This document shows positions 5,582 through 32,637 of a DNA stretch of 37,077 nt, piece after piece (positions within the stretch are counted from its first letter, which is position 1; each line of letters begins with the position of its first letter). The position numbers and the translations under genes were made by a program. Below the pieces are notes generated by a model, which had not been told where the DNA came from, made no database searches, and worked only from the letters and a program-made list of their open reading frames with translations. The stretch is from a virus: the IMG/VR virus record IMGVR_UViG_3300008448_000274, positions 1 to 37,077 of that record; one strand, 5' to 3'.

Positions 5582-5603
5582 TTTGGTTTCTCATAGGTAG
5601 AGA

Positions 5604-5634
5604 GGCGGGGCTAATTGTCCCGCTTTTCTTTTTT
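5604..5634 (+). terminator. Intrinsic terminator after tail tube gene
   Basis: GCGGG (5605-5609), a 9-nt loop, CCCGC (5619-5623), followed by TTTTCTTTTTT. Confidence 0.88.
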
Positions 5635-25424: not shown

Positions 25425-25434
25425 AATGCTTTTG

Positions 25435-25507
25435 CACAGGGATTAGGACTCGAACCTAAAGTTACTGGATTTGGAGTCCAGCGTATTACCAATTATACTA
25501 CCCCTGC
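25435..25507 (-). tRNA. tRNA-Trp (anticodon CCA)
   Basis: 73 nt. Acceptor GCAGGGG/TCCCTGT with G-U at both ends of the stem, anticodon stem CTGGA/TCCAG with loop CTCCAAA giving anticodon CCA, T arm TTAGG TTCGAGT CCTAA. The discriminator is G, as in bacterial tRNA-Trp. CCA is not encoded. Confidence 0.85.
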
Positions 25508-26813: not shown

Positions 26814-27085
26814 GCCTACAAACCGATTTAGAACCTTACAGACAGCTAATTGAATTAGTCCACAACGATGCTTATGTCCCACAGTCACGAAGCAATGATG
26901 CTTTAGCAATTGCACAAATATTAAACAGTCACGGACATAGATACATTTTAAGCGGGTGTCAGTCATGCACTATTAATATGTTCAATGATGCTTATAGATT
27001 ATTAGCGAAGCCCGTATTTATGTCATTCCCAAAGCAAGAACCGCAACAAGAACCTAAAAAACGTGGAAGGAAACCAAAAGCATGA
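26810..27085 (+). CDS. Small protein with AT-hook-like tail (91 aa)
   Basis: 91 aa, helical with CQSC (about 49-52) and a C-terminal KKRGRKPKA, which fits an AT-hook (RGRKP core) and could bind the minor groove of AT-rich DNA. 4-nt overlaps with both neighbours. Function unknown; DNA association is inference. Confidence 0.6.
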   Translation: MSLQTDLEPYRQLIELVHNDAYVPQSRSNDALAIAQILNSHGHRYILSGCQSCTINMFNDAYRLLAKPVFMSFPKQEPQQEPKKRGRKPKA

Positions 27086-28203
27086 GAATATTATTAGTCC
27101 ATCCCATTCACATAATAAGTGAAACGCAGTACACGGTTGGAGCGGTAGAATACCACCGTATGTATAAGCCCCACCATGTGCTTAATAAACTTCATCCCGA
27201 ATACGATTATTCAACGGCAAACAGTATTCACGAAATGTCAGACGATGAGTTAAAGAAATTCAATCTTATTTTATTCTGCCGTGTAATTAACCGACCAGAT
27301 GAAACTAAAGAACGGCTTAATAAATTAGGCATTAAGTTTGGATTAGATTTAGACGATTACTGGCATTTAGATAAGTTTCACGTTCTTTATGAATCCTACC
27401 AAAATAACAATACCCCCGCATTAATTGTTAAGTCAATCGCTGCATCACATTTTGTAATTTGTACCACTTCAATATTAGCGGATAAGATTAAGCCATTAAA
27501 CCCAAACGTGTACGTTATTGAAAACGGTATTGATACTTCGGACGAAACATGGAAACCTAAGCGCACCTATTCAAACCGTGTCAGATTCGGATTTACACAA
27601 GGCTCAACGCATCAAGAGGATATTAATATTGTAGCGGATGACGTAGCTAAGTCAATGGATGATTCTGCATTCTACCATCACGGGCAAATAGTACTATGTG
27701 GGTATGAGGGAAAGCATACTATTAGTGTGGGTTACGAAAAACTATTAACTAATAACTTCAAAGCACTTAAACGCTTTTACTATCCCTATGTGAATGAGTT
27801 GATGAAAGAAACTAAGGAAGGGCTAAAGAAAGATTTATGCTATCGCAGAATATGGAAAACAGACATAGACGTATTCGGAAACGTTTACAACGAGTTTGAT
27901 ATATCGGTTGCCCCTTTGTTAGATACGGAGTTTAATAATTGCAAGTCAAATCTAAAAATGTTAGAGGCGGGATTCAAAGGGTGTGCCATTATGGTTTCAG
28001 AAGTAAGCCCCTATACTCCACTAGCCACAAGTGAAAATTCGTTCTTGTTATCTGAAAAATCATTCAAGGGATGGCAAAGATACATACTATCGAACCCTGA
28101 AATAATTAAGGAGAAAGCGCATTATTTATCAAGGGACGTTAGACCTTATTCCCTACAAAATTTAACCACTAAAAGAAAACAATTATATGACCAACTCGCC
28201 TAA
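27082..28203 (+). CDS. Glycosyltransferase, GT-B fold (GT4-like)
   Basis: 373 aa. A Rossmann-like N-terminus (MRILLVHPIHI), a GLDLDDYWHL region (about 92-101), VICTTSILADKI and VIENGID (about 130-155) form the N-domain and hinge. The C-domain has CKSNLKMLEAGFKG and MVSEVSPY (about 294-318), the acceptor/nucleotide-sugar motif pattern of GT4 enzymes. It probably transfers a sugar in the cytoplasm. First of three glycan enzymes in an overlapping operon (17-nt overlap with the next gene). Confidence 0.78.
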   Translation: MRILLVHPIHIISETQYTVGAVEYHRMYKPHHVLNKLHPEYDYSTANSIHEMSDDELKKFNLILFCRVINRPDETKERLNKLGIKFGLDLDDYWHLDKFHVLYESYQNNNTPALIVKSIAASHFVICTTSILADKIKPLNPNVYVIENGIDTSDETWKPKRTYSNRVRFGFTQGSTHQEDINIVADDVAKSMDDSAFYHHGQIVLCGYEGKHTISVGYEKLLTNNFKALKRFYYPYVNELMKETKEGLKKDLCYRRIWKTDIDVFGNVYNEFDISVAPLLDTEFNNCKSNLKMLEAGFKGCAIMVSEVSPYTPLATSENSFLLSEKSFKGWQRYILSNPEIIKEKAHYLSRDVRPYSLQNLTTKRKQLYDQLA

Positions 28204-28981
28204 AGTAGTTATCGGTATGGCTGTTTACAGCACCGAAGAAAACAAAAAAGATGAATGCCTAGAAAAGTGTTTAGCTAGTCTAATGGCTCAATTATTAGAT
28301 AATAAGAACTATAAACTAGTATTGTCTGTAAATGGCATGACCGACAACACAATCGAGTTTATTAGGTTATTCAAACGTTTAGGGGTTGTGCATGATGTTA
28401 TTTTTAATGAAACCAACATCGGTACAGCCGAAGCAATTAATAAAGTTTGGGAGCGTTACCCTAATTCACACTGTTTAAAAATGGATGACGATGTGGTAAT
28501 ACACTCTACTAACTGGCTAGATTTAATGGTTGAATGTATAGAGCGTGACCCTAATATTGGAATTATAGGATTGAAGCGCAAAGACTGTTGGGAAAAACCA
28601 AGTAACCCTAATCCCGATTATAAGTCAGAATTAATAATGTTACCGCAAGAAGCAGGGCAAAAGTGGCTAATAGTAGAAAAGGTTAAACACGTAATTGGTA
28701 CTTGTCAACTTTACAACCGTGCTTTATTGGATAAAATTGGGTACTTGTACCAACCTAGTCTTTACGGGTATGATGACGTACTGGCAAGTTGGCGCAGTCA
28801 TATAGCTGGATTTAAAAACGTTCATTTCCCACAGATTGAGATTGACCATATAGACGATGGCAAGACACCGTATCAAGGTTGGAAGGAACGGCATTCTGGA
28901 GAACAAACGCAGAATGTTATTAGAATAGTTGACCAGTATTTAAACGGGACTAAATCAATTTACTACAATCCATTCCAATGA
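28187..28981 (+). CDS. Glycosyltransferase family 2 (GT-A)
   Basis: 264 aa. N-terminal VVIGMAVYSTEENKKDECLE, SVNGMTDNTIEFI and NIGTAEAINKVWE precede the metal-binding CLKMDDDVVIH (Asp triplet at about 99-101). A later YGYDDVLASWR fits the catalytic-base loop. Uses a nucleotide sugar and divalent metal. Overlaps both glycan enzymes, so a shared pathway is likely. Confidence 0.8.
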   Translation: MTNSPKVVIGMAVYSTEENKKDECLEKCLASLMAQLLDNKNYKLVLSVNGMTDNTIEFIRLFKRLGVVHDVIFNETNIGTAEAINKVWERYPNSHCLKMDDDVVIHSTNWLDLMVECIERDPNIGIIGLKRKDCWEKPSNPNPDYKSELIMLPQEAGQKWLIVEKVKHVIGTCQLYNRALLDKIGYLYQPSLYGYDDVLASWRSHIAGFKNVHFPQIEIDHIDDGKTPYQGWKERHSGEQTQNVIRIVDQYLNGTKSIYYNPFQ

Positions 28982-30309
28982 TTAAGCTAATAACCACAGC
29001 ATCAAAGAAGCAGGGCGCAGAAAGACTAATAATGTCTGCAAAGAATTACGGTTGGGATTTAGAGTTCTTAACTGGTAATTGGACGGGATTAGAATGTAAA
29101 GAACAGTGGACGTACAAGTATTTAAAAGAGCACCCAGAGGTTGAGGAATTTGTATTTACCGATGCCTTCGATACGTTTGCGGTTGGAACACCTTATAGGA
29201 CATTACAGCACATTAACGTACACCCAAACAAAATAATAATTAGCGCAGAGAAAGGATGCTACCCGCACCCAGAGAAAGCCAAGTTATATCCCGAAACAAC
29301 AAGCCCATTCAAATATGTAAATGCTGGGCAGTTTTGCGGAAGTTCTAAAACATTTATTGAGTTATACGAAGCCAACCAAATAACCGAAAAGGATATAAAC
29401 GACCAAACATGGATGACCGACTTGTATCTTAATAATCAGGACAAATGTTATTTAGATACTGATTGCATGATATTCCAATCAGTAGCCTTTTGCGCCCCAT
29501 CAGAGTTTCTATTAAACAATAATCTAATAAACACGCACACGGATGGTTCGGCTCAATTTATACACGGCAACGGACAAACACCATTGGGTGCTTATGAGCA
29601 TTTAATAGTTAGGACAAAGAATGTTCAAGAATTAACGAATTGTTGGCAGGACACGCCAGAATCACACAAGTACATTAACGACAGTTTAGTTAATAAACTT
29701 CTTACTCATTGGGAATTAACAGAAGAATTACAGCTAAGGTTATGGGTTGAAAAAAACATATTTGGATTCGGTGAACGTGCATTTTATCCAATGTTCAAAC
29801 TTCTATTCGACTCACAACCAATTAATGAAATATTAGAAATAGGAGTATTCAAAGGGCAAACACTTGCTTTGTTTAAAATGTTAGAACCAGAAGCAAACGT
29901 AACAGGAATCACCCCACTAGACACAACAGGGAATTATTGGGAATCTAATTACGCAGAAGATGTAAAGAGAATCCACGATGAGTTCAATCTACCTCAACCA
30001 ACTATCTTACACGGACTATCAACCAATCCCGATATTATTAAAGAAGCAGGTAAAAAAGAATACGACCTAATCTATATAGACGGTGACCATTCTTTTAATG
30101 GAGTAAGACAAGATATTGTTAATTTCAGTACCTTTGTAAAAAAAGGCGGTTATTTAGTATTAGACGATTGCGCTTGTCATTACCAGCTACCAGAAGGAAT
30201 GTTTAGAGGACATGATGAAACGACACGAGGCGTAAATAGTTTACTGCCAAATGACCAGTTCAAAGAATTGTTTAACGTAGTTCACATAAGAGTATTTAAA
30301 AAACTATGA
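28978..30309 (+). CDS. Fused glycosyltransferase-methyltransferase
   Basis: 443 aa in two parts. Residues 1-230 resemble PLOD/GT25-like glycosyltransferases: EEFVFTDAFDTFAVG (a DxD-type motif, about 56-70), PFKYVNAGQFCGS (about 110-122) and LDTDCMIFQ. Residues about 255-443 are a class I SAM-dependent methyltransferase (Methyltransf_24-like): ILEIGVFKGQTLALF (motif I, about 285-299), YDLIYIDGDHSFNGV (about 362-376) and GGYLVLDDC (about 391-399). One polypeptide could add and then O-methylate a sugar. Target (virion protein, DNA or host surface) is unknown. Confidence 0.75.
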   Translation: MIKLITTASKKQGAERLIMSAKNYGWDLEFLTGNWTGLECKEQWTYKYLKEHPEVEEFVFTDAFDTFAVGTPYRTLQHINVHPNKIIISAEKGCYPHPEKAKLYPETTSPFKYVNAGQFCGSSKTFIELYEANQITEKDINDQTWMTDLYLNNQDKCYLDTDCMIFQSVAFCAPSEFLLNNNLINTHTDGSAQFIHGNGQTPLGAYEHLIVRTKNVQELTNCWQDTPESHKYINDSLVNKLLTHWELTEELQLRLWVEKNIFGFGERAFYPMFKLLFDSQPINEILEIGVFKGQTLALFKMLEPEANVTGITPLDTTGNYWESNYAEDVKRIHDEFNLPQPTILHGLSTNPDIIKEAGKKEYDLIYIDGDHSFNGVRQDIVNFSTFVKKGGYLVLDDCACHYQLPEGMFRGHDETTRGVNSLLPNDQFKELFNVVHIRVFKKL

Positions 30310-30315
30310 GCGAAT

Positions 30316-30429
30316 ATGAATGCAGATATTTTTGGGAAAATAGTAACTGATATAATCCCACCACTATTATTAATAGCAGCATCACTAGGACTGCTTTATC
30401 TAGTATCTAAAAAAGGAAACAATGGCTAA
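30316..30429 (+). CDS. Small single-TM protein (37 aa)
   Basis: 37 aa from the ATG at 30316, with one hydrophobic helix (IIPPLLLIAASLGLLYLVS) and a basic C-terminus. Overlaps the terminase small subunit start by 8 nt. Its fit between two genes supports it. Confidence 0.5.
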   Translation: MNADIFGKIVTDIIPPLLLIAASLGLLYLVSKKGNNG

Positions 30430-30856
30430 GAACGGAAACATTCATCCTACAAGGATATTCAAACAACCAGAGGAGTTATACAAAGCCTTTATGGAATACA
30501 AAGCCCATCTGAAAGAAGAAGCGAATCAATGGCTAAAAATCCAATATGTAGGTAAAGACGGGGATAGAGTAACCGACCCAATGAAACTGCCTTACACAAT
30601 GGAAGGATTCGAGAATTTTTGCTATGACCGATATGGGGTTATTGAGCAATACTTCGCAAACAAGGAAGGGTATTACGGTGACTTCGTTAATATCTGTTCA
30701 CGTATTAAAAAAGAAATTCGGGAAAATCAGATAACAGGTGGTTTATTAGGAATGTATAATCCATCCATAACCCAAAGATTAAACGGATTAACTGAAAAGT
30801 CGGACGTTAATATCTCAATGGAACAACCTTTATTTCCCGATAAGAATGATAAGTGA
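30422..30856 (+). CDS. terS: Terminase small subunit
   Basis: 144 aa. The N-terminus has PTRIFKQPEELYKAFMEYKA and the C-terminal half ICSRIKKEIRENQITGGLLG followed by MYNPSITQRLNGL, characteristic of Bacteroidetes phage terminase small subunits. It recognises the packaging site and loads the large subunit. The large subunit gene follows but is separated by an HNH endonuclease gene, an interruption of the usual terS-terL pair. Confidence 0.82.
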   Translation: MAKNGNIHPTRIFKQPEELYKAFMEYKAHLKEEANQWLKIQYVGKDGDRVTDPMKLPYTMEGFENFCYDRYGVIEQYFANKEGYYGDFVNICSRIKKEIRENQITGGLLGMYNPSITQRLNGLTEKSDVNISMEQPLFPDKNDK

Positions 30857-30929
30857 GGGACTATTTGAGGAGGTTATTGTAACCAAAAACGGGTTAGTTG
30901 TAGCTTTTTATACATACGGACTTAATTAA
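30846..30929 (+). CDS. Tiny ORF between terS and HNH gene (27 aa)
   Basis: An ATG overlapping the end of terS by 11 nt opens a 27-aa frame (MISEGLFEEVIVTKNGLVVA at the start). It may be a small gene or a leftover of the intergenic or N-terminal terL sequence displaced by the HNH gene. Weak support. Confidence 0.3.
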   Translation: MISEGLFEEVIVTKNGLVVAFYTYGLN

Positions 30930-30936
30930 TAATAAC

Positions 30937-31434
30937 ATGGTAGACATTCAAGGATACGAAGGTTTATACAAAATAGACGAAAGTGGAAATGTATATTCTT
31001 TGCCAAGAAAAGGAACTAAAGGAGGGTTAATAGGGCATATCAATGAAGAGTACATTGAGGTTGCTTTAAGTAAAAATCGCAAACTTAAAAGATTTGCCTT
31101 ACATAGATTACTCGCAAATGCTTTTATTAAAAAAGTTGACGGACTGGATATGGTTAACCATATTGATGGGGATAAATATAATAACGCATTAACAAATCTT
31201 GAATGGACTAACAATTCAATGAATATTAAACACGCTTATCAAAACGGCCTAATGATAAAGAAAAACGGACATAAAAATGGAATGTCTAAACTATCAGAAA
31301 AGCAAGTATTTGAAATCCGTGAAATATCAAGAAACAGAGGCAAACACTACAATAGAAAGGAACTTGCTAAAATGTATTCAGTTAGCGAGTCTACAATAAA
31401 AGATGTTGTAAATAATAAAAGCTATGTTTATTAG
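30937..31434 (+). CDS. HNH homing endonuclease (NUMOD4-HNH-HTH)
   Basis: 165 aa. Residues 4-22 (IQGYEGLYKIDESGNVYSL) are a NUMOD4 DNA-binding motif. Residues about 56-100 hold the HNH core (HRLLANAF, then VNHIDGDKYNNALTNLEW and a final NIKHAYQNG). Residues about 115-165 are a NUMOD/HTH module (RKELAKMYSVSESTIKDVV). It is free-standing, not inside a recognisable intron, and lies between terS and terL; its last 11 nt overlap the terL start in another frame. Homing endonucleases cut an allele lacking their element next to or at conserved sites. The hairpin gap in terL 74 nt downstream would disrupt such a site. Confidence 0.85.
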   Translation: MVDIQGYEGLYKIDESGNVYSLPRKGTKGGLIGHINEEYIEVALSKNRKLKRFALHRLLANAFIKKVDGLDMVNHIDGDKYNNALTNLEWTNNSMNIKHAYQNGLMIKKNGHKNGMSKLSEKQVFEIREISRNRGKHYNRKELAKMYSVSESTIKDVVNNKSYVY

Positions 31435-32637
31435 AACAACAGCAATAAACAAAATATTGCAGATGACCTCCCGAAAGAAAGTCATTCAGGGCGGCTCATC
31501 TGCGGGTGCATTGCCCCTCTCGTAATTGGGAGGGGCAAAGGTAAAACGTTTGGTATTATCCCCATTCTAATTGATAAGGCTTGTAAAAATTCAAACCTTG
31601 AAATAACGGTAATGTCTGAAAGTGTACCGCATTTAAAAAAGGGCGCAATGAAGGACTTTATTAAGATTATGAAGGCGACCAATAGGTGGCACGAATCCCG
31701 CTTTAATTCAACGGATAGAAAGTACAAGTTTGCAAACGGTTCTTATATTGAGTTCATTCCCCCTAATTCGGTTATCGGTGCAAGGCGCAATGTCTTATAT
31801 GTCAATGAAGCTAATCGAATAAAGTACCAAGATTATCACCAAGCAGCAGTCCGTACAAGCGATGACATTTACATTGACTTTAACCCTACCGATTCATTCT
31901 GGGCGCATGAAGAAGTGCTTAAAGAAACGGATAGCGAATTATTAATTCTTACATACAAAGATAATGAAGGACTACCGCCTAATGTGGTTGATGACTTCAT
32001 ACAAGCAAGGTTAAAAGCAGATAGAGAAAAGCAGTCGGGACGTGAAGGATATTGGGCTAATTGGTGCAAAGTTTATATTGATGGAGAAATAGGCTCATTG
32101 CAAGGAGTAGTATTTAACTTTGAGGTTATTAAAGAAATACCACAAGGTGCGGATAGAATAGGATATGGATTAGACTGGGGGTTCAGCGCAGACCCTACCG
32201 CATTGGTTAAAGTATGCAAGGAAGGGACTAAGCTATATGTTCAAGAGTTAATCTATGAAACTGGATTATTAAATTCAGATATTCATTCACGATTTCAATC
32301 ATTAGGAGTACCTACCCATGTACCTATAATTGCGGATAGCGCAGACCCTAAGAGTATAGCTGATTTAAAAAGATTAGGCGGTTACACTATTACTGGCGCA
32401 AACAAAGGACAGGATTCAATACGTGCCTCTATTGCTAAATTGCAAGAATACACTATTTACGTCACCGAAGATTCGACCAATCTAATAAAGGAACTAAGAA
32501 ACTACTGTTACTTACAAGACGATACAGGCAAGTCAACTGGCGTCCCAATAGATGCTTATAACCACGCTATTGATGCGTTAAGGTATGTAGCACTCAATCT
32601 ATTATTTAAGCGTACTGGTATTTACAACATGGCGTAA
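31424..32637 (+). CDS. terL: Terminase large subunit, frame interrupted by 35-nt hairpin gap
   Basis: ATG 31424 starts MFIRTTAINKILQM; this frame stops at TAA 31523-31525, five codons past Gly28. Omitting 31508-31542 joins it to the frame ending at 32637 and gives a 392-aa protein of normal length. The joined P-loop is perfect: G23-G-S-S-A-G28 / K29-T30. Later motifs are Walker B-like LYVNEAN (about 99-105), and the nuclease Asp residues in DWGFSADPTAL, IADSADPKS and DAYNHAIDALRY. It packages DNA by ATP hydrolysis and cuts it. Without gap skipping the downstream part (first ATG 31612) lacks the Walker A motif and would be inactive. Bypass, splicing, or loss of function are the options. Confidence 0.8.
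31508..31542 (+). other. 35-nt hairpin coding gap, candidate translational bypass element
   Basis: Takeoff GGT (31505-31507) and landing GGT (31540-31542) are identical. The gap holds a 12-bp stem, 31511-31522 with 31527-31538 (two G-T pairs), loop TAAT, which contains the stop codon. GGAGG at 31529-31533 lies 6 nt before the landing codon. 35 nt is not a multiple of 3. Confidence 0.7.

Follow-up and report, generated by a model that had tools for sequence, protein, structure and literature searches.

The terL locus of the window

The window, i.e. the whole stretch of DNA analysed (an IMG/VR virus record of 37,077 bases), holds a single large terminase gene, terL; a second intact copy was looked for, and the record contains only this one. 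The coding sequence of the gene is split over two disjoint open reading frames (ORFs), and an intact product is demanded by the conservation and the dN/dS values reported below. The features of the locus are as follows.

30422–30856, + strand: small-terminase-like gene (144 aa), an ORF colinear with the relative L003 at 85% nucleotide identity and named from its position before terL
30918–30930, + strand: left junction GGACTTAATTAAT, the last stretch common to the window and L003; terL of L003 starts exactly here
30937–31434, + strand: HNH homing-endonuclease-like gene (165 aa) with weak NUMOD4 and HNH_3 hits; its stop overlaps the start of terL
31424–31507, + strand: terL 5′ exon, codons 1–28, reading MFIRTTAINKILQMTSRKKVIQGGSSAG from ATG 31424 to GGT 31505–31507
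31505–31507, + strand: take-off codon GGT, Gly28 of the P-loop
31508–31539, + strand: untranslated gap of 32 nt
31511–31538, + strand: hairpin with a 12-bp stem (31511–31522/31527–31538) and a UAAU loop (31523–31526)
31523–31525, + strand: in-frame stop TAA, within the hairpin loop
31540–31542, + strand: landing codon GGT, opening GKTFGIIPIL...
31540–32637, + strand: terL 3′ exon, P-loop GKT onward with the Terminase_3C domain, stop-free inside

Exon 1 encodes the conserved TerL N-terminus only. The Walker A loop reads GGSSAG before the gap, and reading resumes in another frame after the second GGT, from which the ORF extends over 365 aa and ends with a stop at 32637. Removal of the gap gives a TerL of 28 + 364 = 392 aa, as stated in the original prediction, whose coordinates for the end of the first part (Gly28, GGT 31505–31507), the stop (TAA 31523) and the point of resumption (GGT 31540) were right, and whose 12-bp stem, stop-bearing TAAT loop and identical GGT codons at both edges were all re-found.

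The hairpin (−21.5 kcal/mol, with two G.U pairs in its stem) outranks all other 32-nt folds in a scan of the + strand of the window in 4-nt steps. It begins 3 nt after the take-off codon, so that a stem-loop is present at take-off, and the stop is the sixth codon past take-off, whereas in T4 gene 60 it comes directly after that codon. The GGAGG noticed 6 nt before the landing GGT is indeed at that position (31529–31533); however, the role of a Shine–Dalgarno signal attributed to it found no support, and a conserved signal of this type was rejected, since the motif is part of the stem (3′ arm) and varies between gap types, others having GGGGG. A terminator was likewise rejected, as no T run follows the stem.

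The stop of the HNH gene overlaps the start of terL at 31424–31434 (TATGTTTATTAG), and the same overlap between an endonuclease end and the terL ATG recurs in contigs L040, L051, L260 and L116. This arrangement suggests that the two genes may be translationally coupled.

An inserted tract absent from close relatives

Among the 31 terL relatives retrieved with the 3′ part of the gene, the P-loop is unbroken in all. The two closest, L002 (terL 99% identical in amino acids) and L003 (97%), are without the gap. The HNH gene before terL is absent from L003, and also from L002 as far as its contig reaches, the upstream gene of L002 running straight into terL to that limit. Codons 1–28 of the window terL have only 64–67% DNA identity to these two relatives, with a protein that is nearly the same, whereas the first 600 nt of the 3′ exon are 94% identical to L002 and 92% to L003; against L002, the contrast lies between 64% in exon 1 and 97.6% in the next 84 nt. 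HNH gene and gap are thus jointly absent from close relatives, with a divergent exon between them (64–67% versus 92–98% downstream). Since homology breaks at GGACTTAATTAAT and returns after the gap, the HNH gene, the altered exon 1–28 and the hairpin form, as judged from these alignments, one inserted tract. Pattern searches of viral contigs gave no match to the HNH of the window (P0003), and the exact window gap, present on a single metagenomic contig, had no second record among the viral contigs.

A family of interruptions at the terminase P-loop

A wider terL search was performed with alignment A3 against viral contigs and genomes and was followed by pattern scans, repeated contigs being removed by name. 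The original prediction had suggested looking among related terminases for uninterrupted alleles and for other alleles carrying a gap; both exist, the former in L002 and L003 and the latter in numbers. Hairpin gaps with stops were found at the same P-loop of terL in at least about 78 contigs from many samples, at four adjacent codons, Thr25, Ser26, Ala27 and Gly28:

Gly28 class (contigs, each count being 'at least'): window, 1; group B, 15; C, 20; D, 13; H, 3; I, 1; J, 2; K, 2
Ser26 class: group E, at least 18 contigs
Ala27 class: L319 and L116
Thr25 class: L081

Sampling of the Gly class is partly biased, as one pattern required a C-run (6-nt spacing, T at the fourth gap base); the discovery of groups B, C and D, L078 and L116 did not depend on this pattern, and I and K were recovered again in a scan free of it. 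No stop occurs in the first 280 codons past the P-loop in any of 247 terL loci, which indicates that the disruption is confined to this one point. The Gly-class stop pattern had no match in 395 genomes of the Bacteroidota phylum, and the Ala-class pattern with a second-codon stop had none in viral contigs. In GenBank phages, the best TerL relatives are approximately 50% identical (Flavobacterium psychrophilum phages), and the relatives found among Bacteroidota phages and prophages point to hosts of Bacteroidota type.

The gaps share a common architecture. In all but L081, the order is take-off codon, C-run 6 nt later (7 nt in L319 and L116), stem, loop, 1–9 nt and landing codon, the stem being located within the gap in every type except L081. 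Stems are of 8–17 bp, and loops, of 4 or 6 nt, are mostly GNRA (GCAA, GAAA, GTAA) or UAAC/UAAU. The position of the stop varies: in most Gly types it occupies the second codon past take-off, in the window and group B it lies in the loop, and only in class E (Ser) and L081 is it directly next to take-off. Its identity varies as well, with TAA, TAG and TGA all present.

Two members stand apart. The HNH-linked L081 (2080–2190) displays a gap of only 5 nt (ACG TA ACT), with a long perfect hairpin in the coding sequence just upstream, and may be a bypass of another design or else an error. L116 (380–450), which comes from a Chitinophagales MAG and has its terL preceded by a GIY-YIG-like ORF, carries a hairpin gap with an unmatched landing codon (GCG versus ATA) and may be a decayed allele.

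Probable mobility of the cassettes

Of the 43 interrupted loci, 13 have an HNH or GIY-YIG gene within 130 nt of the P-loop, compared with none of the 156 intact ones (p = 4e-10). In the window, the HNH gene is adjacent to the gap, ending approximately 105 nt before GKT. The partner is an HNH gene in the window, in groups B, C, D, H and J, in L081 and in 7 of the 18 class E contigs, and a GIY-YIG-like ORF in K and L116 (sequence read by eye, Pfam giving a weak HTH hit only).

Near-identical TerLs occur with and without the gap. On the TerL tree (fasttree, branch order approximate), approximately 17 gains or losses of the gap are needed, and the gap of group B is spread over two TerL clades. In L040 and in L051/L222/L265, the HNH gene is preceded by a relic of an older terL start. 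L319 (73–1010) presents a class E-like relic allele (GGTACTTCC TAA ATG TCCCCC), then an ORF (202–864) that is HNH-like by eye and without a match in Pfam, and after it a new start of a complete terL with an Ala-class gap of 47 nt. This succession looks like two successive cassette invasions.

Selection on the interrupted genes

In the 3′ exon, dN/dS is 0.046 for group B, 0.077 for C, 0.033 for D and 0.13 for E (mean dS 0.5–1.1), indicating that the interrupted terL genes have long been functional under strong purifying selection. Within group C, none of the 33 gap sites is variable across 16 distinct divergent loci, against 15 of 27 and 34 of 50 third positions in the two flanking exons (49/77; p = 2e-11 versus the gap). 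Sites near the gap vary on both sides, and recent homing could be partly behind the invariance of the gap within groups.

How the gap is skipped

That the gap is precisely skipped is near certain, and we infer that the ribosome is the agent. In our opinion, the gap is very likely a programmed ribosomal bypass element similar to that of T4 gene 60 and carried by a homing-endonuclease cassette. The hop proposed in the original prediction is supported by the intact alleles of near-identical phages and by the equivalent gaps of approximately 78 contigs, and is further backed by the same amino acid on both sides, gap lengths in all frames, purifying selection and adjoining homing endonucleases. However, the accompanying argument, that precise repair of the P-loop speaks against random damage, is weak: deletion of any insertion 'repairs' a gene, so that this point alone proves nothing, and it is the comparative evidence that carries weight.

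According to this scheme, the ribosome, its peptidyl-tRNA-Gly paired with GGU 31505, would be stalled by the hairpin; this tRNA would release, pass 32 nt including the stop codon and re-pair on GGU 31540, and translation would go on with AAA to yield an intact 392-aa TerL. As for the cassette, terL alleles without the gap would be cut by the endonuclease close to the conserved P-loop, and repair templated by the cassette would copy the endonuclease gene, the altered 5′ exon and the gap together. The gap and the altered codons would render the new allele resistant to the endonuclease, while bypassing would preserve the function of the essential TerL protein.

The codons flanking the gap are informative in this respect. 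In 11 of the 12 gap types, L116 being the exception, the two codons specify one and the same amino acid, and the doubled residue tracks the take-off position: Thr/Thr (ACG/ACT), Ser/Ser (TCC/TCA), Ala/Ala (GCC/GCA) and Gly/Gly (GGT/GGT, GGA/GGA, GGG/GGA, GGT/GGA and GGT/GGC). The probability of such matching by chance is 6e-13 at 1/16 per type, with types taken as independent, and 7e-5 when only five take-off classes are counted. As third bases differ in several pairs, this is not plain target-site duplication. In the window, GGT and GGT can be read by the same tRNA; relaxed wobble is needed for Gly/Gly in L238 (GGT/GGA) and for Ser/Ser (TCC/TCA). One residue encoded twice fits the re-pairing of one peptidyl-tRNA, whereas simple removal of an insert from RNA or DNA would leave left and right parts without overlap.

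The doubling bears directly on the alternative that an excision step removes the gap from the mRNA before translation, as a minimal intron or through an endonuclease-plus-ligase reaction. Precise removal of RNA by some process would give much the same comparative record, and excision agrees with purifying selection, with conservation of the hairpin on the RNA strand and with indifference to gap length. Yet it leaves unexplained why the same amino acid, with different third bases, stands on both sides. Moreover, no Rfam intron was matched in the window or in L319 (there was neither a ribozyme core nor an in-frame intein, the gap being short and holding stops), and all self-splicing introns known to us are far longer than 29–47 nt. 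We therefore regard excision as unlikely.

Folding also points to RNA. The mRNA-sense fold is more stable than its complement in 14 of the 14 gaps folded, and 23 of 147 stem pairs are G.U, a strand bias and a pairing that argue for an RNA rather than a DNA role; Ser-class variants swap A-U for G-C in the stem. A loss of the gap at the DNA level in some genomes, which alone would then make TerL, is accordingly very improbable: hairpins with short flanking repeats can be deleted during replication, and empty alleles do coexist in close relatives, but in many cases the codons on either side are not exact repeats of each other, the G.U pairs favour RNA, and the intact alleles differ too in the codons around the gap site and are thus not simple deletion products.

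Skipped lengths of 5, 32, 35, 36, 37, 39, 40, 43 and 50 nt cover all three frames, and the related class E (Ser) gaps of 39 and 40 nt, 1 nt apart, are each followed by an open terL. Hence, no single frameshift or readthrough fits. Although the gap of the window could be read without meeting a stop after a −1 shift, a TerL with a gap-encoded insert is scarcely credible, as the gap types need 0, +1 and −1 corrections, TAA, TAG and TGA all occur, and the product would carry approximately 11–13 extra residues inside Walker A. Finally, a dead allele or an assembly error, suggested by the single contig with the exact window gap and by the perhaps decayed L116, has almost no chance of being correct and is already contradicted for the gap family by equivalent gaps in at least about 78 contigs from many samples, dN/dS of 0.03–0.13, a terL frame otherwise stop-free and a single terL in the record.

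Comparison with known systems

T4 gene 60 is the one phage example of efficient programmed bypassing that has been thoroughly characterized, and the scarcity of others is noted in reviews (PMC3014915, PMC5009743). In T4, GGA codons flank a gap of 50 nt; the element further has a stem-loop, a nascent-peptide signal and a stop immediately after take-off, and a homing endonuclease is inserted upstream (PMC3014915, PMC5009743, PMC11194080); the signal is KKYK, and a 5′ stem-loop and dependence on L9 are also described (PMC3014915, PMC11194080). Bypass and homing-endonuclease insertion at gene 60 are the subject of Bonocora et al. 2011 (doi 10.1073/pnas.1107633108), as cited in PMC10236363.

The terL family resembles gene 60 in having an endonuclease gene just upstream and a gap early in the downstream coding region, in its matched Gly codons, hairpin and stop within the gap, and in that endonuclease-free relatives are also gap-free. 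However, it targets the P-loop in other phages and presumably other hosts; its gaps are mostly of 29–37 nt, with the hairpin wholly between take-off and landing; a C-run follows take-off by 6–7 nt, and the stop usually falls one codon further on or within the loop; codons for Thr, Ser, Ala or Gly serve for take-off, and the partners are HNH and GIY-YIG genes. The likeness concerns the mode of working, and common descent is not claimed.

Four other systems are comparable in part:

In the terminase of Streptomyces phage Hau3, a candidate bypass is described as having a much shorter gap tied to a UUA codon and was proposed to be regulatory; here too a terminase gene is concerned, but the description mentions no inserted hairpin cassette (PMC5009743).

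In the mitochondria of Magnusiomyces capitatus, many short inserts are skipped in translation, with codons matched in most cases; unlike in the terL family, this involves mitochondrial ribosomes, many genes and seemingly no dependence on context, and no link to phages or endonucleases is described (PMC5009743).

In the tape-measure gene of phage Corndog, a mobile HNH lies upstream, splicing was not detected and the authors suggested bypass; as in the window, a mobile HNH insertion adjoins an essential phage gene, but it is located upstream of the first detected tape-measure peptides and not inside a motif (PMC4351075).

In Prevotella loescheii, a Bacteroidota bacterium, a 29-nt hop was reported for an adhesin and not followed up; this is a cellular gene, and neither an endonuclease nor a family is described (PMC5009743).

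No bypass family at the terminase P-loop was found in the literature searched (excluding subscription papers and preprints).

Bypassing, proven in phages only for T4, thus looks like a widespread mobile element. We consider it likely that mobile cassettes, each comprising an HNH or GIY-YIG endonuclease, a divergent exon and a hairpin bypass element, form a broad and still-active class that has repeatedly invaded the terminase P-loop of Bacteroidota phages, with at least four take-off codons arisen or shifted to, a geometry of hairpin-guided tRNA re-pairing unlike that of T4 gene 60, and, in L319, a cassette that has landed on what is left of a previous one. The association with two families of endonuclease is a hint that homing endonucleases may generally use bypassing to invade essential codons without killing the host; bypassing would then join introns and inteins as a route into such codons. 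With a dozen natural variants of shared geometry, the rules of codon matching, spacer, stem and stop position would become readable by comparison and testable. Real terminases may also be split or discarded by annotation pipelines.

Other features of the window

Just upstream of the terminase genes, three consecutive genes (27082–30309) read like putative glycosyltransferase- or methyltransferase-type proteins. The second-strongest 32-nt hairpin of the window (5597–5628, −20 kcal/mol) is located between two genes and is probably a terminator. A tRNA-Trp (cca) gene (25434–25507, − strand) overlaps a small predicted ORF.
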